From Blastococcus sp. TF02A-35 (lineage in GTDB: Bacteria > Actinomycetota > Actinomycetes > Mycobacteriales > Geodermatophilaceae), in contig NZ_SPQP01000017.1 in NCBI RefSeq assembly GCF_004571075.1, positions 1 to 64,000 on the forward strand: 64,000 nucleotides of DNA, written 5' to 3'. The translations under genes were made by a program, and so were the position numbers. Positions within the stretch are counted from its first letter, which is position 1; the number at the start of each line of letters is the position of its first letter. The notes under the pieces were generated by a model. It saw only the letters and a program-made list of their open reading frames with translations, had not been told where the DNA came from and made no database searches. This document shows, piece after piece, positions 19,937-30,725 of this stretch.

Positions 19937-20980
19937 GTGACCTCGGTCGACACCGTCCCGGCCCCGGGCGCCGCCATCGAGCGGCGTCCGGGGTCGGTCC
20001 GGCTCCTGTGGCTGCTGGTGGTCCTCGCGCTGCTGGTGGCGCTGATGGCCGCCTCGGTGGCTATCGGCTCCCGAGGCGTGGGCTGGGCCGACATCGTCGC
20101 CGCGCTGGGCGGATCCTCGGACACCATCGCCGAGGCGGCGGTCACCAAGCGCGTGCCCCGCACCGTGCTCGCCGTCGTCGTCGGCGCGGCGCTCGGCCTA
20201 TCCGGCGCGGTCATGCAGGGCGTCACCCGGAACCCGCTGGCCGACCCCGGCGTCCTCGGCATCAACATGGGCGCGTCGCTGGCCGTGGTGACCGGGCTGG
20301 CCTGGTTCGGCCTGTTCTCGGCGACCAGCATCATCCTCACGGCGATCGCCGGGGCGGCCCTCGCCGCGGTGTTCGTCTACGTCGTCGGGTCGCTGGGACG
20401 CGGCGGCCCGACGCCGCTCAAGCTGGCGCTGGCCGGCGCCGCCACCTCCGCCGCGCTCACCTCCTTCATCACCGCGGTCGCGCTGCCCCGCGGTGACATC
20501 GCCGCCAACGTGCAGTCGTGGCAGGTCGGTGGCGTCGGCGGTGCCACCTTCGCCTCCTTCCTCCCCGTGCTGCCGTTCCTGGCGGCCGGCCTGCTCATCA
20601 GCCTGCTGTCGGCCCGCAGCCTCAACTCCCTCGCCCTGGGCGACGAGCTGGCCGCGGGGCTGGGCGAGCGCGTGGCCCTGGCCCGCGCCGTCGCCGCCGC
20701 CGGCTCCGTGGTGCTCTGCGGAGCCGCCACCGCGGTCGCCGGCCCGATCTGGTTCGTCGGGCTCGTCGTCCCGCACCTGTGCCGGCTGCTGGTCGGCGTG
20801 GACCACCGCTGGCTGCTGCCCTTCTCGGCGCTGACCGGGGCGTGCCTGCTGACCGCCTCCGACGTCGTCGGCCGCATCGTGGCCCGCCCCAGCGAGCTCG
20901 ACGTCGGCATCATCACCGCTCTGATCGGCGCCCCGCTGTTCATCGCCATCGTGCGCCGGCACAAGGTGCGCGAGCTGTGA
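19937..20980 (+). CDS. Iron-siderophore ABC transporter permease (FecCD family)
   Basis: 347 residues from GTG, 10 bp after the binding protein. Typical FecCD sequence: LPRTVLAVVVGAALGLSGAVMQGVTRNPLADPGVLGIN-type segments (here KRVPRT, LSGAVMQGVTRNPLADPGVL), GAATSAALTSFI, and GPIWFVGLVVPHLCRLLVGVDHRWLLP, the cytoplasmic loop that contacts the ATPase. About nine to ten membrane helices. It should form a heterodimer with the next permease. Confidence 0.93.
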   Translation: MTSVDTVPAPGAAIERRPGSVRLLWLLVVLALLVALMAASVAIGSRGVGWADIVAALGGSSDTIAEAAVTKRVPRTVLAVVVGAALGLSGAVMQGVTRNPLADPGVLGINMGASLAVVTGLAWFGLFSATSIILTAIAGAALAAVFVYVVGSLGRGGPTPLKLALAGAATSAALTSFITAVALPRGDIAANVQSWQVGGVGGATFASFLPVLPFLAAGLLISLLSARSLNSLALGDELAAGLGERVALARAVAAAGSVVLCGAATAVAGPIWFVGLVVPHLCRLLVGVDHRWLLPFSALTGACLLTASDVVGRIVARPSELDVGIITALIGAPLFIAIVRRHKVREL

Positions 20981-22029
20981 CCGCCGTCCTCGCGCCGTCG
21001 GCCGCCACCGTGGACGCCGTCGGCCGGGCGCGGGGCCGCCGCTCGTCGCGCCGGCGCCTGGTCATCACCGTGCTCTCGGTGCTGGTGGTCGGCGTCCTCG
21101 CCGCCACGCTGATGGTCGGGCGGACGTTCTACCCGCCCGGCGACGTGCTCCGGGTGGTGCTCGGCGAGCAGGTGCCCGGCGCGAGCTTCACCGTCGGCCG
21201 GCTGCGGCTGCCCCGCGGCGTCCTCGCCGTCGTGGCCGGGCTCAGCTTCGGCCTGGCCGGCGTCACCTTCCAGACGATGCTGCGCAACCCGCTGGCCAGC
21301 CCCGACGTCATCGGCATCTCCTCGGGCGCCAGCGCCGCCGCGGTCTTCGGCATCGTCGTGCTGTCGCTGAGCGGGACGGCGGTCTCGACCCTGGCCGTCG
21401 CCGCGGCGCTGGGCGTCGCGTTGCTGATCTACGGCCTGGCGTACCGGAACGGCGTCGCGGGGTCCCGGCTGGTCCTCATCGGGATCGGCATCGGGGCGAT
21501 GCTCACCAGCGTCGTCAACTACGTGCTCACGCGGGCGGGGCAGTGGGACTACCAGGAGGCGCTGCGCTGGCTGACCGGCAGCCTCAACGGGACCACCTGG
21601 GAGGCGGTGCTGCCGGCGCTGGTCGCCCTGGCGGTCCTGGCCCCGGTCCTGCTGGGCCAGACGCGGAACCTCGGTGCACTGCAGCTCGGCGACGACACCG
21701 CCTCCGCGCTCGGGGTGCGGGTCGAGCGCACCCGCCTCGTCGCGATCGTCACCGCCGTCGGGCTGGTCGCCTTCGCCACGGCCGCGTGCGGGCCGATCGC
21801 CTTTGTGTCGTTCCTCGCCGGGCCCATCGCGGCCCGCGTCGTCGGGCCGAACGGCTCCCTGCTCGTCCCGGCCGCCCTGGTGGGGGCGCTGCTGGTCCTC
21901 GTCGCCGACCTCGTCGGGCAGTTCGGCCTGGGGACCCGCTTCCCCGTGGGCGTCGTCACCGGGGTGCTCGGCGCCCCGTACCTGATCTACCTGATCATCC
22001 GCACCAACCGCGCCGGAGGCTCGCTGTGA
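20977..22029 (+). CDS. Iron-siderophore ABC transporter permease (FecCD family), second subunit
   Basis: 350 residues from GTG at 20977, overlapping the previous stop by four bases (GTGA), which implies coupled translation. A basic N-terminus precedes the first helix. Family marks: RLPRGVLAVVAGLSFGLAG, FQTMLRNPLASPDVIGISSGAS, RLVLIGIGIGAMLTS, and GPIAFVSFLAGPIAARVVG in the ATPase-contact loop, where the usual VPH is replaced by LAGPI as in many FecD-type second subunits. Confidence 0.93.
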   Translation: MTAVLAPSAATVDAVGRARGRRSSRRRLVITVLSVLVVGVLAATLMVGRTFYPPGDVLRVVLGEQVPGASFTVGRLRLPRGVLAVVAGLSFGLAGVTFQTMLRNPLASPDVIGISSGASAAAVFGIVVLSLSGTAVSTLAVAAALGVALLIYGLAYRNGVAGSRLVLIGIGIGAMLTSVVNYVLTRAGQWDYQEALRWLTGSLNGTTWEAVLPALVALAVLAPVLLGQTRNLGALQLGDDTASALGVRVERTRLVAIVTAVGLVAFATAACGPIAFVSFLAGPIAARVVGPNGSLLVPAALVGALLVLVADLVGQFGLGTRFPVGVVTGVLGAPYLIYLIIRTNRAGGSL

Positions 22030-22844
22030 GCGGCACCCATTCCCTGGTCGTCGAGGGCCTGAGCCTCGGTTACGGCGAGCGCACGGTCATCGAGGGCCTG
22101 GACCTCCTCGTCCCGCCGGGGCGGATCACCGCGATCGTGGGTGCCAACGCCTGCGGCAAGTCCACGCTGCTGCGGTCGATGTCGCGGCTGCTCTCCCCGC
22201 GCGCGGGGCACGTGCTCCTCGACGGCCGGGAGGTGCACCGCACGCCGGCCAAGGAGCTCGCCCGCACCCTGGGCCTGCTGCCCCAGTCGCCGATCGCGCC
22301 CGAGGGCATCACCGTCGGCGACCTCGTCGGCCGGGGCCGCCACCCCCACCAGGGGGTCTTCTCCCGGTGGAGCCGGGAGGACGACGCCGCGGTGGCCGCC
22401 GCGCTCGAGGCGACGCAGACGACCGTGCTGGCCGACCGGGCGGTGGACGAGCTCTCCGGCGGCCAGCGTCAGCGGGTGTGGATCGCGATGGCCCTGGCCC
22501 AGCAGACCGACCTGCTCCTGCTCGACGAGCCGACCACGTTCCTCGACGTCGCCCACCAGGTGGAGGTCCTGGACCTGCTGACCGACCTCAACCGGGCGCG
22601 GGGCACGACGATCGTGATGGTGCTGCACGACCTCAACCTCGCCGCGCGCTATGCCGACCACCTGGTCGCCGTCGCGGGGGGCCGCGTGCACGCGTCGGGG
22701 GAGCCGGGCCAGGTGCTCACCGAGGACTGCGTCCGCGCCGTCTTCGGGCTGGAGAGCCGGGTCATCGCCGACCCGACGTCGGGCCGGCCGCTCATGCTGC
22801 CGCTGGGCCGGCACCACACCCAGGCGCCGGCCGGTACCGCCTGA
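22026..22844 (+). CDS. Iron-siderophore ABC transporter ATP-binding protein
   Basis: 272 residues from GTG at 22026, overlapping the permease stop by four bases. Walker A GANACGKST, signature LSGGQRQR, Walker B LLLLDEPTTFLD and the switch His in MVLHDLNLAARYAD are intact. The Y-loop region GYGERTVIEGLDL and the Q-loop LLPQSPIAPEG are also present. It powers the two FecCD permeases and is the last gene of the iron-regulated operon. Confidence 0.95.
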   Translation: MSGTHSLVVEGLSLGYGERTVIEGLDLLVPPGRITAIVGANACGKSTLLRSMSRLLSPRAGHVLLDGREVHRTPAKELARTLGLLPQSPIAPEGITVGDLVGRGRHPHQGVFSRWSREDDAAVAAALEATQTTVLADRAVDELSGGQRQRVWIAMALAQQTDLLLLDEPTTFLDVAHQVEVLDLLTDLNRARGTTIVMVLHDLNLAARYADHLVAVAGGRVHASGEPGQVLTEDCVRAVFGLESRVIADPTSGRPLMLPLGRHHTQAPAGTA

Positions 22845-25774: not shown

Positions 25775-26434
25775 TCAGGTCTCCGTAGGAGGCGATGCGA
25801 GGACGTCGACGACGATCACGTTCACCTCGCTGGTGATCAACCCGGTGTGCGCCACGAGGTGCTCGGTGATCCGGTTTCGAACCTCCTGCGCGACGCGAAT
25901 GATAGGAACGCCGTAGTCGACGGCGATCTGGACGTCGATGACGACGTGAGAGCCCGCGATCCCGACGTCGGTAGCAGGTTCTCCCGCAGCGCCGGCGATC
26001 TCGGTGGGGGAGGGCGACTGTCCGGCCCCGGTCTCGGGGCGACCGTTGCCGAGGGCGACCGAGACGTGCGGAACGGACTCGGCGGCCAGTCGTGCGACGG
26101 CGCCGACGACGCGTGCCGCGATGCGGGTCTGCCCGGTCGGGTCGGTCAGGACGGCGTGCCATGCGTTGCGGGACAGTTCGCGGATCTGTGTCATGACTTC
26201 CTGCAGCAGGCCGGCCGGTGCGCGGACGTCTTCCGCTGCCAGTTCGGTGACGGGGGCCCACAGGTCGGCCAGCTCCGCCAGGGCGGCCCGGCAGTGCGGA
26301 CAGCTGCGTTGGTGTGCCGGGTCACGGGGGGGAGCATGCTCGGCCACCTGGGTGAGCAGATCGTCGACGCCTGCGCCGCAGGGCAGGCGGTCGTCGTCCT
26401 CGCTGTTGCTCGGGAACACGGGAGTCACCTCCAT
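25775..26434 (-). CDS. ZAS-type zinc anti-sigma factor fused to an Asp23/Gls24 domain
   Basis: 219 residues from ATG. The N-terminus has a zinc anti-sigma signature: Cys19, then HQRSCPHC giving His41, Cys45 and Cys48 (C-x21-H-x3-C-x2-C). Residues about 95-215 form an Asp23/Gls24 domain: ARVVGAVARLAAESVPHVSVAL, then VVIDVQIAVDYGVPIIRVAQEV and GLITSEVNVIVVDV. There is no membrane helix. It overlaps the sigma gene's 3' end by 10 bp, so the two are co-translated and probably form a pair. By inference the Asp23 part would couple sigma release to the state of the Asp23 proteins made by the divergent operon. Confidence 0.85.
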   Translation of the reverse strand: MEVTPVFPSNSEDDDRLPCGAGVDDLLTQVAEHAPPRDPAHQRSCPHCRAALAELADLWAPVTELAAEDVRAPAGLLQEVMTQIRELSRNAWHAVLTDPTGQTRIAARVVGAVARLAAESVPHVSVALGNGRPETGAGQSPSPTEIAGAAGEPATDVGIAGSHVVIDVQIAVDYGVPIIRVAQEVRNRITEHLVAHTGLITSEVNVIVVDVLASPPTET

Positions 26435-27003
26435 TCCTGGAGCCGGGACAGCAGGGTCTTGCGCCCACGATGCGCCCTTACCTTGGCTGCTGTCTCGGAG
26501 ATGCCGAGAATGCGCCCCATTTCAGCGTGTGTGTAACCGCCGAAGACGGTCAGGACAAGTGGCGCGCGTTGGTCGAAAGGTAGCGACAGCACCGCGGTGC
26601 GGACGGCGTCCCTGCGCTGAGCACGCACGGCCAGGTCCTCTGCCGACGTCGCCTGGGGTAGTCCTTCGGCTGATCCGATGTCGTCGGGCAGGGGCACGGT
26701 GAGCTTGCGAGCCCGCAGCACGTTGTGGCAGCGGTTGATCAGGATGCGCGTAACCCACGTCGAGAACTGCGCCTCACCGCGGAAGCCGTCCAGGTGCTGC
26801 CAAGCCTGCAGGAGGCACTCCTGCACCGCGTCCTGGGCGTCCGCTGGATGCCCCACCAGGCGCAGCGCCACGTGGTAGAGCCGGTCCTGGTGCGCGCGGA
26901 CGAGCGATGCGAAGGCGTCCTCGTCGCCCTCCCTCGCCAGCGAGACCCAGCGCTCCTCCATCGGGTCGGTGCGGCCGGCGATGGGGTTTGCGTCCCGGGT
27001 CAC
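26425..27003 (-). CDS. ECF RNA polymerase sigma factor (RpoE-like)
   Basis: About 192 residues from GTG at 27003 (MTRDANPIAGRTDPMEERW); ATG at 26961 would give a shorter form starting just before the first helix. Region 2: EDAFASLVRAHQDRLYHVALRLVGHPADAQDAVQECLLQAW split over helices. Region 4: LSLPFDQRAPLVLTVFGGYTHAEMGRILGISETAAKVRAHRGRKTL. It is followed by, and overlaps, the zinc anti-sigma gene and is divergent from the Asp23 operon, its most likely target. Confidence 0.92.
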   Translation of the reverse strand: MTRDANPIAGRTDPMEERWVSLAREGDEDAFASLVRAHQDRLYHVALRLVGHPADAQDAVQECLLQAWQHLDGFRGEAQFSTWVTRILINRCHNVLRARKLTVPLPDDIGSAEGLPQATSAEDLAVRAQRRDAVRTAVLSLPFDQRAPLVLTVFGGYTHAEMGRILGISETAAKVRAHRGRKTLLSRLQEWR

Positions 27004-27024
27004 CGGTGAAGCCCACGCTTCCGC

Positions 27025-27052
27025 GGAACCTTTTTCGCCATGAGCTGTAACC
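27025..27052 (+). promoter_or_regulatory. Candidate ECF-type promoter for the Asp23 operon
   Basis: GGAACC at 27025-27030 has the form of an ECF -35 element (GGAAC). After the GGAAC core there are 17 bases to GTAACC at 27047, a possible -10 (ECF consensus GTT or CGTC). It reads toward the Asp23 operon, whose first start is at 27164, from within the upstream region of the divergent sigma gene. If correct, the operon is controlled by the adjacent sigma factor. Confidence 0.35.
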
Positions 27053-27163
27053 CTTCCACATCCAGTTGTGTCCAACTGGTGTAAGTCGGCGACCCGAGGG
27101 CACAGCCCCGGTCGCCCGTCGGTTTACGACGTTATCCCCCATCCCGGAAGAAGAGGTTCCCCA

Positions 27164-27625
27164 GTGACGCAGTCTCCGAGCTCTAGCACCTCCGCGTCGT
27201 CGAGCGCTGTCACCCAGGCGTCGCCGTCGGCTCTGCAGACCAGCCAGGGCACCACCACCGTCGCCGACAACGTCGTCCAGAAGATCGCCGGCCTGGCTGC
27301 GCGCGAGGTGTCCGGCGTCTACGCTCTCGGCGGCGGCGCGGCACGCACCCTCGGCGCGCTCCGCGAGCGCATCCCGGGCGCCACGCAGTCGGCCGGTCAG
27401 GGCGTTTCGGTCGAGGTCGGGGAGAAGCAGGCAGCGGTCGACCTGGACCTGGTCACCGAGTACGGCGCCCCCATCGCCGATGTCGCCCGGTCGGTCCGGC
27501 GAAACGTCATCGCGTCGGTCGAGGGGATGACCGGTCTGCAGGTCACCGAGGTCAACATCTCGGTCAACGACATCCACCTGCCGTCCGACGACGAGGGCTC
27601 CCAGGAGCCTCCGCGGGTCCAGTGA
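27164..27625 (+). CDS. Asp23/Gls24 family envelope stress protein (first copy)
   Basis: 153 residues from GTG. A Ser/Thr-rich N-terminal 30 residues leads into a full Asp23 domain: TTVADNVVQKIAGLAAREVSG, then VYALGG, GVSVEVGEKQAAVDLDLVTEYG, PIADVARSVRRNVIASVEGMTGLQVTEVNISVNDIHLP. In Staphylococcus Asp23 forms filaments under the membrane, held by AmaP, and affects envelope stress. Here it begins an operon with two more Asp23-type genes, DUF2273 and an AmaP-like anchor, and diverges from the sigma/anti-sigma pair. Confidence 0.92.
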   Translation: MTQSPSSSTSASSSAVTQASPSALQTSQGTTTVADNVVQKIAGLAAREVSGVYALGGGAARTLGALRERIPGATQSAGQGVSVEVGEKQAAVDLDLVTEYGAPIADVARSVRRNVIASVEGMTGLQVTEVNISVNDIHLPSDDEGSQEPPRVQ

Positions 27626-27999
27626 CCTCAGCGTCCAGTGCTTCGGCCGCGGTCGCGGCGATGTCGGAGGCCGAGCTTGCCGACGCCATCGCCGCTGCCG
27701 CGGTCGCCTGCCCCGCCGTCGCATCGCTGTCCCGCGGCAGCGGCCTGCGGAACGTCGCAACGTACCTACCGGGGCGTCGGGTCGACGGGGTGCGGATCGA
27801 ACCCAGCCGCGTGTTGGTGTCGGTCGTGGCCGTCCAGGGCGTTCCGATCATCGCGATCGCCGACCAGGTGCGTCGCGCGGTCGAGCCGCTCGTGGCCGGA
27901 CAGCCGGTGGACGTGCACATCGCGGACCTCCAGCTGCCCGAAGAACAGCCGCCGGCCCTGCCCCCCGGGCCGTCCGGTGTGGGGGTTGCGCAGGCCTGA
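27622..27999 (+). CDS. Asp23/Gls24-like protein (second copy, shortened)
   Basis: 125 residues from GTG, overlapping the preceding stop by four bases. It has a helical lead (MSEAELADAIAAAAVACPAV) and a condensed Asp23 pattern: RVDGVRIEPSRVLVSVVAVQGVPIIAIADQVRRAV and VAGQPVDVHIADLQLP. The glycine-rich repeat of the first copy is missing and the C-terminus is proline-rich. Probably a diverged paralogue that assembles with its neighbours. Confidence 0.75.
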   Translation: MTSASSASAAVAAMSEAELADAIAAAAVACPAVASLSRGSGLRNVATYLPGRRVDGVRIEPSRVLVSVVAVQGVPIIAIADQVRRAVEPLVAGQPVDVHIADLQLPEEQPPALPPGPSGVGVAQA

Positions 28000-28238
28000 T
28001 GCCTGAGACCACCGACCCGGAGGAGCGTCGCCGACGGCGCGCGCTGCTCCGCGCGCACCATCCCGACCTCGGGGGCGATCCGTCCGAGTTCCTCCGGGTC
28101 ATGGCGGAACTCGAGGGGCGAGCCCGCAGAGCAGGTCCCCGGCCGGCGGACGACATCCGCTTCGTCCGCCGGCCCCGGGGTCTCGCCAGGATCGCCGCCT
28201 GGTTCCACCGGCGCCGCAGACCACGGCGCGTTGTCTGA
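27999..28238 (+). CDS. Miniature HPD protein (J-domain-like fragment)
   Basis: 79 residues from ATG, sharing its first base with the preceding TGA. The stretch ALLRAHHPDLGGDPSEFLRV matches the end of helix II, the HPD loop (residues 21-23) and helix III of a DnaJ J domain; helix I and most of helix II are absent. The C-terminus is very basic (HRRRRPRR). HPD is the motif that stimulates DnaK ATPase, so this could be a reduced cochaperone or a decoy. Its fixed place among Asp23 genes suggests a role in their folding or assembly; this is inference. Confidence 0.7.
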   Translation: MPETTDPEERRRRRALLRAHHPDLGGDPSEFLRVMAELEGRARRAGPRPADDIRFVRRPRGLARIAAWFHRRRRPRRVV

Positions 28239-28272
28239 ACTGCCCTGAACCCGTCTTGTCCTGGAGGTTGCC

Positions 28273-28452
28273 ATGCCACCCACCGTCGTGGGTCTGTTCA
28301 CCGGTCTGCTGCTCGGTATCGCCTGGGTCATCGGCGGCTTCGACGCCTTCGTCGGAACCGCGGTGCTCGGTGTCATCGGCTTCGTGATCGGCAAGGTGGT
28401 GTCCGGTCAGCTCGACCTCACGCCCTACCTCGGTGGGCGCGGTCCGCGGTGA
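28273..28452 (+). CDS. DUF2273-like small membrane protein
   Basis: 59 residues, from ATG with GGAGG seven bases upstream to TGA at 28450. Two hydrophobic hairpin segments, VVGLFTGLLLGIAWVIGGFD and AVLGVIGFVIGKVVSG, end in a short polar tail. Proteins of this kind (DUF2273) accompany Asp23 and AmaP in Firmicutes and actinobacteria. It overlaps the next Asp23 gene by four bases. Confidence 0.8.
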   Translation: MPPTVVGLFTGLLLGIAWVIGGFDAFVGTAVLGVIGFVIGKVVSGQLDLTPYLGGRGPR

Positions 28453-28895
28453 GCAGCGCCGTCACACTTCCCCCCGATGGCCCGCAGGCCACCTCCGGGC
28501 CGGACGAACACGGCGCCGCCCTCCCGGAGCTCGGCGACCCCGCCGAGCGGGGCACCCTCGAGATCGCCGACCGTGTCGTCGAGCGAGTCGCCGGCTATGC
28601 GGTCACGCAGGTCGAGGGTGCGACCGCCGCTCCACGCCGGCTGCTCGGCATCAACGTCGGGGACGCCCGCCCGGACAAGGAGGCGTCCGTCGACGCTCGC
28701 GTCGACGGGCACACCGCCACGGTCGACGCGACCGTGGCGATCGGCTGGCCCGCCTCGGTCCGCACCGTAGCCAGCCGGGTGCGCGAGCGGGTCCGCAAGG
28801 ATGTCGAGCACATCACCGGCGTCCGGGTCGCCCACGTCGACATCGACGTCGTCAGCCTGAGCACGCCCTCCGCCCATCGGCGACGCGTCCAGTGA
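28449..28895 (+). CDS. Asp23/Gls24 family protein (third copy)
   Basis: 148 residues from GTG at 28449, inside the stop of the DUF2273 gene (GTGA overlap). A Pro/Gly-rich lead of about 35 residues is followed by GTLEIADRVVERVAGYAVTQVEG, then ARVDGHTATVDATVAIGWPASVRTVASRVRERVRKDVEHITG and VRVAHVDIDVVSL. The usual YGxPI segment is replaced by GWPAS. It lies between the small membrane protein and the two larger membrane proteins. Confidence 0.88.
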   Translation: MSSAVTLPPDGPQATSGPDEHGAALPELGDPAERGTLEIADRVVERVAGYAVTQVEGATAAPRRLLGINVGDARPDKEASVDARVDGHTATVDATVAIGWPASVRTVASRVRERVRKDVEHITGVRVAHVDIDVVSLSTPSAHRRRVQ

Positions 28896-28920
28896 GCCCC
28901 GACTCGACCAAGGAGTGTCC

Positions 28921-29451
28921 ATGTCCATCGTGAACCGGGTCATCGCGACGGTGCTGGCGCTGGCGCTCCTCTTCGGCGGCCTCCTCGCCGTCGTGGAGAT
29001 CGTCCTGGCCGCCCTGGGGCGTCCGTACTGGTTGGTCCCCCACCCGATGTGGAGCACGTGGCTGGGTGAACAGTCCTTCACCGGCGGCGTCGTCCGCGCC
29101 ATCCTCATCGGCCTGATCATCATCGGGCTGCTCCTGCTGGTGGTCGCCCTCCGCCGCGGCAAGCCCGGCTCTCTCACCCTGCCGGGTCGCACCGACGGGG
29201 TTCGCGTCACCGCCTCGCGCCGCGGTATCGAGCGATCCCTGTCCACCGCTGCGCGTCGAGCTGACGGCGTGAAGACCGCCAGCGCCAAGGCCGGACGTCG
29301 CACCGTGCGGGTGAAGGCAGCCACGGCCATGCGCTCCCCGCAAGAGCTGCAGCAGCCGGTCACCGCAGCTGTGACCGAGCGGCTCGACGAGCTCGGGCTG
29401 TCCGACGTCCTCCGTCCGCGCGTCACCGTCTCTGGAAAGTCCTCGCGATGA
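28921..29451 (+). CDS. DUF6286-type membrane protein
   Basis: 176 residues from ATG at 28921, with AAGGAG five bases upstream. Two membrane helices (about 5-30 and 58-82) flank a short segment that contains RPYWLVPHPMWSTWLGE. The C-terminal 90 residues are basic and Asp23-binding-protein-like (RTDGVRVTASRRGIERSLSTAARRADGV). This architecture fits DUF6286 proteins found in actinobacterial Asp23 clusters. It overlaps the next gene by four bases. Confidence 0.75.
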   Translation: MSIVNRVIATVLALALLFGGLLAVVEIVLAALGRPYWLVPHPMWSTWLGEQSFTGGVVRAILIGLIIIGLLLLVVALRRGKPGSLTLPGRTDGVRVTASRRGIERSLSTAARRADGVKTASAKAGRRTVRVKAATAMRSPQELQQPVTAAVTERLDELGLSDVLRPRVTVSGKSSR

Positions 29452-30020
29452 GCTCACGTGTCAATGGCGTCAACCGCACGATCCTGGCATTGCTGGGGTT
29501 GCTCCTGCTCGCGGCCGGCGGGCTCGGGCTGGCCCTGGGTTTCGGGGCCTTCGGCGATGGCGATCAGCCCGTTCTGCCGCAGCCCGTGCGCGACTTCGCC
29601 CGGAATCAGCCGTGGTTCTGGTGGGCCGTCGCTACCGTCTGCCTCCTGCTGGCCCTGCTCGGGCTCCGATGGCTGCTGGCCCAGCTGCGCACCGACCGGA
29701 TCGGGCGCCTGGAGCTGACCACCGACGACCGCGACGGACTCACGACCGTCCACACCAGTGCGCTCGCCGATGCCATGGAGGCCGAGGCCGAGAGCCTGCG
29801 CGGCGTCGCCGGGGCATCGGCGCACGTGCTCGACCGAGGGGGTCGACGGGTCGCCCTGGCCGTGGACCTGACCGACTACGCCGACATCGCCGAGGTCCGG
29901 CAGGCCTTGGAGGACCGGTTGGTCAGCAACATGCGGCAGGCTCTGGACGACCCGCAGCTGCCCATCGACATCGAGCTCCGGCCGGGTCGGACCCGGTCGG
30001 GTGGACGCGGCCTCCTCTGA
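29448..30020 (+). CDS. amaP: AmaP-like alkaline shock membrane anchor protein
   Basis: 190 residues from ATG. Two N-terminal membrane helices (about 9-33 and 55-75) are joined by a loop with FARNQPWFWWAVA. The cytoplasmic part (RIGRLELTTDDRDGLTTVHTSALADAMEAE, ASAHVLDRGGRRVALAVDLTDYADIAEVRQALEDRL) resembles half an Asp23 domain, as in AmaP, which recruits Asp23 to the membrane. It is the last gene of the Asp23 operon. The symbol is used by analogy with Staphylococcus. Confidence 0.75.
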   Translation: MSSRVNGVNRTILALLGLLLLAAGGLGLALGFGAFGDGDQPVLPQPVRDFARNQPWFWWAVATVCLLLALLGLRWLLAQLRTDRIGRLELTTDDRDGLTTVHTSALADAMEAEAESLRGVAGASAHVLDRGGRRVALAVDLTDYADIAEVRQALEDRLVSNMRQALDDPQLPIDIELRPGRTRSGGRGLL

Positions 30021-30452
30021 CCCACGATCCCGGCTGTGGCACGCCTTGCGCTGGTCGAAATTCTGGGAATTCGCCTATGACTGGGTGACAACTCGGCGTG
30101 TTGTGGGCATGGGCGTTTACGTCGTATCCGCGTTCCGGGTGCCGCCGCCTGCTAGGACCTCTCGTGCAGCTTTCAAGGACTAGATCCTCGAGCTCCTCCG
30201 CTCCTAGAGGGTCGACACGGACGAGGACGCCGGGCTGGTCAGCAAGTTCGGCATCGACCCGAAGCAGCTGCTCGGCGACGTCGGCAGTGGTCTGGGCGGC
30301 AAGCCCGGTCTCTGACCGCCGGCACCGGCAGTACCGCCGATCCGCTGCCGGCTCGGGGTTGCACGACCTGCAGCAGACATGACGTGCGGCAAGTCATCAC
30401 CCGTTCACCGGGCACTCGTCGAACTCGTCCCGGTCCATCCCCAGGAGACATC
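30021..30452 (+). other. Long intergenic stretch with one gene remnant
   Basis: 432 bp between the AmaP-like gene and the GlsB-type gene. Apart from the 3' gene remnant at 30208-30315, nothing coding is convincing. The left part has several near-miss stress-promoter strings (GTTTAC at 30115) without a good -10 partner. Confidence 0.5.
30208..30315 (+). pseudogene. 3' remnant of a small gene
   Basis: A codon-like stretch ending in TGA at 30313 reads DTDEDAGLVSKFGIDPKQLL, then GDVGSGLGGKPGL. It has no start codon: an in-frame TAG lies at 30205-30207 just upstream. The Gly-rich end and the segment KFGIDPKQLLG look like a real small cytoplasmic protein. I do not recognise the family with certainty. 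Confidence 0.35.
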
Positions 30453-30725
30453 GTGATCTGGAACATCATCGTCCTGCTCGTCATCGGCCTCGTCGCCGGC
30501 CTCATCGCCCGAGCGGTCATCCCCGGCAAGCAGGACCTCAGCATCGCCATGACCATCGTGCTGGGCGTCATCGGTTCGCTGGTCGGCAACCTGCTCGGGG
30601 GCCTCATCAGCGGTCGAGGCTTCGAACTCGGCACCGCCGGATGGATCGGCTCCATCTTCGGCGCCATCGTGGTGCTCGGCGTCTACCTCGCCGTCACCGG
30701 GCGACGAGGCGCGCGATCCCGCTGA
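30453..30725 (+). CDS. GlsB/YeaQ/YmgE family stress membrane protein
   Basis: 90 residues from GTG, with CAGGAG six bases upstream. Three hydrophobic segments carry family marks: IIVLLVIGLVAGLIARAVIPG, MTIVLGVIGSLVGNLLGG and GTAGWIGSIFGAIVVLGVYL. These transglycosylase-associated proteins are induced by stress together with Gls24/Asp23 in enterococci (glsB beside gls24), so its place here fits. Role in the envelope is not established. Confidence 0.93.
   Translation: MIWNIIVLLVIGLVAGLIARAVIPGKQDLSIAMTIVLGVIGSLVGNLLGGLISGRGFELGTAGWIGSIFGAIVVLGVYLAVTGRRGARSR

Follow-up and report, generated by a model that had tools for sequence, protein, structure and literature searches.

A stretch of 64,000 nucleotides from Blastococcus sp. 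TF02A-35 (contig NZ_SPQP01000017.1, positions 1 to 64,000; this whole stretch is the window referred to below) contains a gene for an extracytoplasmic function (ECF) sigma factor, an overlapping gene for a predicted anti-sigma factor in which a zinc domain is fused to an Asp23 domain, and, divergent from this pair, an operon of the Asp23/AmaP type. Our reading, to which we assign a probability of about one half, is that this locus is a product-sensing sigma/anti-sigma switch, with the Asp23 domain of the anti-sigma factor as its sensor. Because the gene set of the locus recurs in dozens of genomes, the arrangement cannot be attributed to chance. (The family names used below were coined for this analysis: AspA for the operon's main Asp23 protein, along with AspB, mini and HPD.)

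The sigma factor and the anti-sigma/Asp23 fusion

The two genes of the pair, and the two domains of the fusion, are positioned as follows.

26425 to 26961, minus strand: ECF sigma factor of 178 amino acids (Pfam Sigma70_r2, 3e-19; r4_2, 1.3e-13)
25775 to 26434, minus strand: predicted anti-sigma factor of 219 amino acids, a zinc domain fused to an Asp23 domain
26165 to 26389, minus strand: predicted zinc anti-sigma domain of the fusion (residues 16-90, with C19, H41, C45 and C48), from the PDB matches of profile A6 and the helices in the model
25799 to 26158, minus strand: Asp23 domain of the fusion (residues 93-212), from PF03780, hhalign with AspA and the predicted fold

The genes overlap by 10 bp; the ATG of the fusion is at 26434, and the stop codon of the sigma gene ends at 26425. 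The sigma gene itself is taken to start at an ATG, with an earlier start possible, and the best relative of its product within PDB is SigW (5wuq_A, E=2e-23). For the N-terminal domain of the fusion, a Pfam search returned no match to an anti-sigma model and no zf-HC2-like match even at E 0.5, and PDB profiles were used for this reason. A search of PDB with the N-terminal profile A6 returned three sequences at E<=5, of which the two below 0.01 are RslA (2e-4) and RsiW (0.0044); both alignments cover H-x3-C-x2-C plus the helices that come after it. (The first of these is chain 3hug_B, named 'probable conserved membrane protein', which we take to be RslA.) The complete ligand motif of the fusion is C19-x21-H41-x3-C45-x2-C48. 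These matches support the prediction of an N-terminal zinc anti-sigma domain, homologous to its counterparts in RsiW and RslA, that would act as an inhibitor of the sigma factor.

The remainder of the fusion matches PF03780 with 42 bits, against a cut-off of 28, and hhalign relates it to AspA with a probability of 98.6%; the same Asp23 model is found by Pfam in 46 of 47 fusion homologues. A sequence-only reading of this DNA had claimed that an ECF sigma gene overlaps a gene for a zinc anti-sigma/Asp23 fusion. The 10-bp overlap, the Pfam sigma domains, the C-H-C-C motif and the PF03780 match bear this out, and the PDB matches to RslA and RsiW do the same for its claim about the N-terminal part.

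A single conserved promoter for the operon

ECF promoters have an AAC-type -35 and a GTC-type -10 element, and one sequence between the divergent transcription units fits this form.

27046 to 27075, plus strand: ECF-type promoter of the Asp23 operon, TGTAACC-N15-GTGTCCAA, unique in the genome at 0-1 mismatch and present in 12 of 12 relatives

The pattern GTAACC-N13-17-GTGTC has one occurrence in the 3.93 Mb genome. Since a reversed control pattern is found twice, this count alone proves nothing; it is the place of the site and its conservation that carry the argument. In the 12 loci of this sigma clade, [GTC]GTAAC[CT]-N14/15-GTGTC is present once per locus (12/12), each time upstream of AspA, and it occurs nowhere else in the 318 kb, both strands, of those loci. 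Another sigma clade pairs with another motif, TGCGAGGATC-like and followed by GTGTCTAAC. Some operons that are far from their sigma gene retain a related motif, and motif A was not seen in five operons that have no sigma gene nearby (L042, L048-L051). From this pattern of sequences we strongly infer that the sigma factor drives the Asp23/AmaP operon and essentially nothing else.

When up to two mismatches are allowed, with a spacer of 14 or 15 bases, every other site in the genome has two mismatches and is without other support. Such two-mismatch sites number 15 with the 15-base spacer (6 for the reversed control) and 3 with the 14-base spacer (again 6 for the control). A wider regulon made of weak sites may exist, and a regulon beyond the operon was rejected, there being no additional site with fewer than two mismatches and nothing else in favor of the two-mismatch sites. 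Also rejected was the idea that the same motif drives the sigma gene, as none is present upstream of sigma in the window's clade; in that clade the sigma/anti-sigma pair does not carry this motif.

The sequence-only reading had also claimed control of the Asp23 operon by the sigma factor, which is supported by a single conserved promoter whose motif varies with the sigma clade. However, it had located the promoter at 27025-27052 (GGAACC). This was the wrong place: that sequence is not kept in the close relatives L084, L085 and L087, and the conserved promoter is the one at 27046-27075.

Distribution and evolution of the locus

Homologues were collected in two sets, by a BLAST-type search (61 relatives) and by a scan of GTDB genomes (47 loci, L084-L130). 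The fusion is found in Blastococcus, Geodermatophilus, Modestobacter, Cellulomonas, Pseudonocardia, Actinomycetospora, Dactylosporangium, Streptomyces and others. Within an even sample of the class, a full-length or nearly full-length fusion is present in 28 of 297 genomes; all 28 have a separate Asp23 match as well, and in 26 of them this match shares a contig with the fusion and is no more than about 5 kb away (these class-sample counts were made by hand from the search table). The sigma gene adjoins the fusion in 25/25 class loci. When a sample of the phylum was used, a full-length match was seen in only one genome outside the class.

Depending on the genome, the pair sits divergent from, upstream of or downstream of the Asp23 operon, and the existence of these three layouts argues that the linkage is independent of any one inherited layout. 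The survey of gene order that the sequence-only reading had suggested finds that the pair and the Asp23 operon recur across Actinomycetes. In an unrooted tree, the Asp23 domains sort into one group for the fusions, one for AspA and one for AspB (95/79, 98/97 and 99/96, respectively), a topology consistent with the fusion having arisen once, long ago. The fusion architecture is old and is conserved across Actinomycetes.

Individual genomes show further variety. Among the loci of Actinomycetospora and Pseudonocardia (L104-L128), some have several Asp23 operons and up to 11 Asp23 matches, with pairs that lie from about 10 kb to more than 1 Mb from an operon. On the linear plasmid NZ_CP109253.1 of Streptomyces anulatus (L170), an annotated sigma gene overlaps an 'Asp23/Gls24' gene, and genes for Asp23 and DUF6286 proteins run divergently from the two; this locus lies near an IS5-family transposase, and its location on a plasmid beside such a gene argues that the locus can be mobile. 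In Blastococcus sp. TF02A-26 (L086, L036), the AspA and sigma genes overlap head to head and both are without their N-terminal parts, as if the promoter region had been removed by a deletion or an assembly error.

The Asp23/AmaP operon

The operon occupies the plus strand from 27164 to 30020, or extends to 30725; the GlsB/YeaQ-like gene, the last one listed here, probably closes the operon or forms a separate unit.

27164 to 27625, plus strand: AspA, the main Asp23 protein, ending in RVQ (PF03780, 103 bits; GTG start at 27164)
27622 to 27999, plus strand: mini, a divergent Asp23-like protein (no Pfam match; hhalign with AspA, 94.9%)
27999 to 28238, plus strand: mini HPD protein, truncated and J-domain-like, ending in RVV (HHPD-x-GG in 10 of 10 homologues)
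28273 to 28452, plus strand: DUF2273-like small membrane protein (PF10031, 15.2 bits, below the cut-off of 25.4; sequence and position conserved)
28449 to 28895, plus strand: AspB, the second Pfam Asp23 protein, ending in RVQ (PF03780, 55.5 bits)
28921 to 29451, plus strand: DUF6286 membrane protein (PF19803, 82 bits)
29448 to 30020, plus strand: AmaP-like Asp23 membrane anchor (NCBIfam NF033218, 60.6 bits, cut-off 55)
30453 to 30725, plus strand: GlsB/YeaQ-like (Transgly_assoc) membrane protein (PF04226, 26.1 bits)

The GTG start of AspA was set from the ribosome-binding site and from homologues; a start at 27068 was rejected, as this position falls within the -10 element of the promoter. Of the proteins of the asp23-amaP gene set, AmaP and Asp23 score above their cut-offs here; DUF2273 scores below its own, with its place and sequence conserved. 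The divergent operon that the sequence-only reading had described, with three Asp23-type proteins, DUF2273, a DUF6286 protein, an AmaP-like protein and a mini-HPD protein, is present as claimed, although DUF2273 is below the cut-off and one of the Asp23-like proteins is recognized by profile-profile comparison alone. Genome-wide, the Asp23 domains that Pfam can detect number three, all of them at this locus. A GlsB/YeaQ-like gene is also present in the gls operon of Enterococcus faecium.

Several products of the operon share a C-terminal R-V-x tail, found at 27611-27625 in AspA, at 28881-28895 in AspB and at 28224-28238 in the HPD protein, which is unrelated to Asp23. Across loci L034-L130 it is present on 37/39 AspA, 29/35 AspB, 20/25 HPD and 8/36 AmaP proteins, and it is also seen on Gls24 of E. 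faecium (PRVE) and on a Leuconostoc Asp23 (NRVK). The tail may be a common docking tag of the operon proteins.

Elsewhere in the window, 20518-22844 encodes, by the look of the translations (no family search having been run), a FecCD-type permease and the ATPase of a siderophore ATP-binding cassette transporter; these genes are unrelated to the locus.

A model of product sensing and its alternatives

In the proposed mechanism, the sigma factor would act from 27046-27075 on the divergent Asp23/AmaP operon as essentially its sole target, and this operon would build a layer of Asp23 protein beneath the cell membrane. The Asp23 domain of the anti-sigma factor would touch the Asp23 proteins made from this operon, or the AmaP/DUF6286 anchors, through contacts of the same kind as those used in Asp23-Asp23 pairing and polymerization, and the occupied or free state of this domain would then decide how firmly the zinc domain holds sigma. 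The sign of the response is a guess: an intact, well-supplied layer might hold the anti-sigma factor in its active state, and a damaged or depleted one might free sigma until rebuilding is complete. As the anti-sigma gene would not be co-induced with the operon in the window's clade, shut-off by way of the operon products is attractive. The sequence-only reading had proposed that the anti-sigma factor senses the Asp23 layer through co-assembly, which is plausible; the Asp23 protein of Staphylococcus aureus assembles into filaments and has AmaP as its tether (PMC6954212). More tentatively, the anti-sigma factor might be a dedicated reporter subunit that, by joining or leaving the layer, turns the completeness of the polymer into transcription of the operon, making the layer a self-measuring protein coat.

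The AlphaFold2 model of the fusion (mean predicted local distance difference test score, pLDDT, of 83) has a helical N-terminal part, residues 23-89, and a separate alpha/beta Asp23 domain, residues 93-212. The structure search covered the Asp23 domain alone. Both this domain and AspA match the C-terminal domain of MamM (Z of about 11, root-mean-square deviation 1.4-2.1 over 76-79 residues); the AspA model is weak overall, with a mean pLDDT of 68, but good across the matched domain. In cation diffusion facilitator (CDF) transporters, the C-terminal domain is the dimerization domain. The models thus predict that the Asp23 domain of the fusion and AspA share a fold near that of the dimerizing CDF domains of MamM/MamB and YiiP.

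Some observations weigh against product sensing. Many Asp23 operons occur without the fusion, and in some genomes of Pseudonocardia and Actinomycetospora the pair is far from the Asp23 operon. Conservation of the promoter in close relatives partly reflects shared ancestry. In addition, the R-V-x tail is on 0/52 of the anti-sigma fusions, which argues that the fusion is not simply another subunit of the layer.

In a different explanation, which we regard as unlikely, the zinc domain is the sensor, as in RsrA, such that oxidation or loss of zinc would free sigma and the Asp23 domain would merely dimerize the protein. The full C-H-C-C set is indeed present in nearly all homologues, being invariant in 14/14 of those from the protein search (the loci of the GTDB scan are biased and unusable for this count, because the pattern that retrieved them contained H, C and C). 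Furthermore, zinc motifs are overrepresented among soluble anti-sigma factors, a trend that has been linked to redox sensing in the cytoplasm (PMC7406223). However, RslA and RsiW are the best PDB matches, and the zinc of RsiW has been described as structural (PMC7406223). The conserved fusion to Asp23, and a target made up of Asp23 genes only, would also be left unexplained. The sequence-only reading had named loss of the zinc ligands in homologues as evidence against itself. Such loss occurs in the class loci L075 and L077; both keep the Asp23-like part and the sigma neighbor, which argues that zinc is inessential to the arrangement and speaks against the zinc domain as the sensor.

It is somewhat more doubtful that the Asp23 domain serves as an address tag that holds the anti-sigma factor at the membrane through AmaP/DUF6286, with the signal arising elsewhere (for example, from proteolysis or the state of the lipids) rather than from the amount or assembly of Asp23. 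The tethering of S. aureus Asp23 by AmaP (PMC6954212) is in keeping with such a role, as is the weak resemblance, by profile comparison, of the fusion's Asp23 domain to the soluble part of AmaP (87% probability), but a tag leaves unexplained why the Asp23 operon is the only target and why, in the class sample, the fusion is never found without a separate Asp23 gene. Finally, it is most improbable that the Asp23 domain senses a chemical signal, with a metal ion or small ligand bound in the manner of CDF C-terminal domains: the predicted fold is like those of MamM/MamB and YiiP, and Pfam ZT_dimer gives weak matches in 2/47 fusions, but no Cys and no His is among the invariant or nearly invariant residues of the Asp23 domain in the homologue alignments, and a common fold does not demonstrate a function.

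Relation to known systems

With SigW as the closest PDB relative of its sigma factor, and with an N-terminal anti-sigma domain homologous to those of RsiW and RslA, the pair resembles SigW/RsiW and SigL/RslA. RsiW and RslA are membrane proteins, whereas the predicted sensor here is a cytoplasmic Asp23 domain. RsrA and ChrR, like the predicted fusion, have a soluble zinc anti-sigma domain, in ChrR with a C-terminal sensor domain; these two use a thiol switch or a cupin, whereas here the proposed sensor is paralogous to the product of sigma's own target. S. aureus asp23 is under the control of SigB. The locus shares Asp23, AmaP, DUF2273-like and GlsB-like proteins with the staphylococcal asp23-amaP and enterococcal gls24 operons, but unlike these it has extra Asp23 paralogues, DUF6286, an HPD protein and an ECF sigma factor of its own.

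The sequence-only reading knew of no characterized system of this kind. This holds for the open papers searched, among which no experimental study of a pairing between an ECF sigma factor and an Asp23-family anti-sigma factor was found, but the kind itself has already been predicted: ECF286 and ECF292 are described as adjoining soluble Asp23-family proteins that are predicted anti-sigma factors, without experimental data (PMC8999054). Our locus, with an ECF sigma factor adjoining a soluble Asp23-family protein, fits that description. The passage of that paper on ECF286 and ECF292 names no zinc anti-sigma/Asp23 fusion, no Asp23/AmaP operon as target and no promoter, and the papers searched yielded no mention of the fused architecture, of a target limited to one operon with its promoter, or of the product-sensing reading.

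In the staphylococcal system Asp23 is membrane-tethered, and its molecular function has been called unclear (PMC6954212). What Asp23 proteins do, and how a cell measures them, is the question that this locus could address. If the product-sensing reading is true, a single-operon switch with an Asp23-bearing inhibitor would report the state of the layer directly at the genetic level, and the locus offers a defined promoter and few parts with which to study the gauging of a protein coat bound to the membrane.

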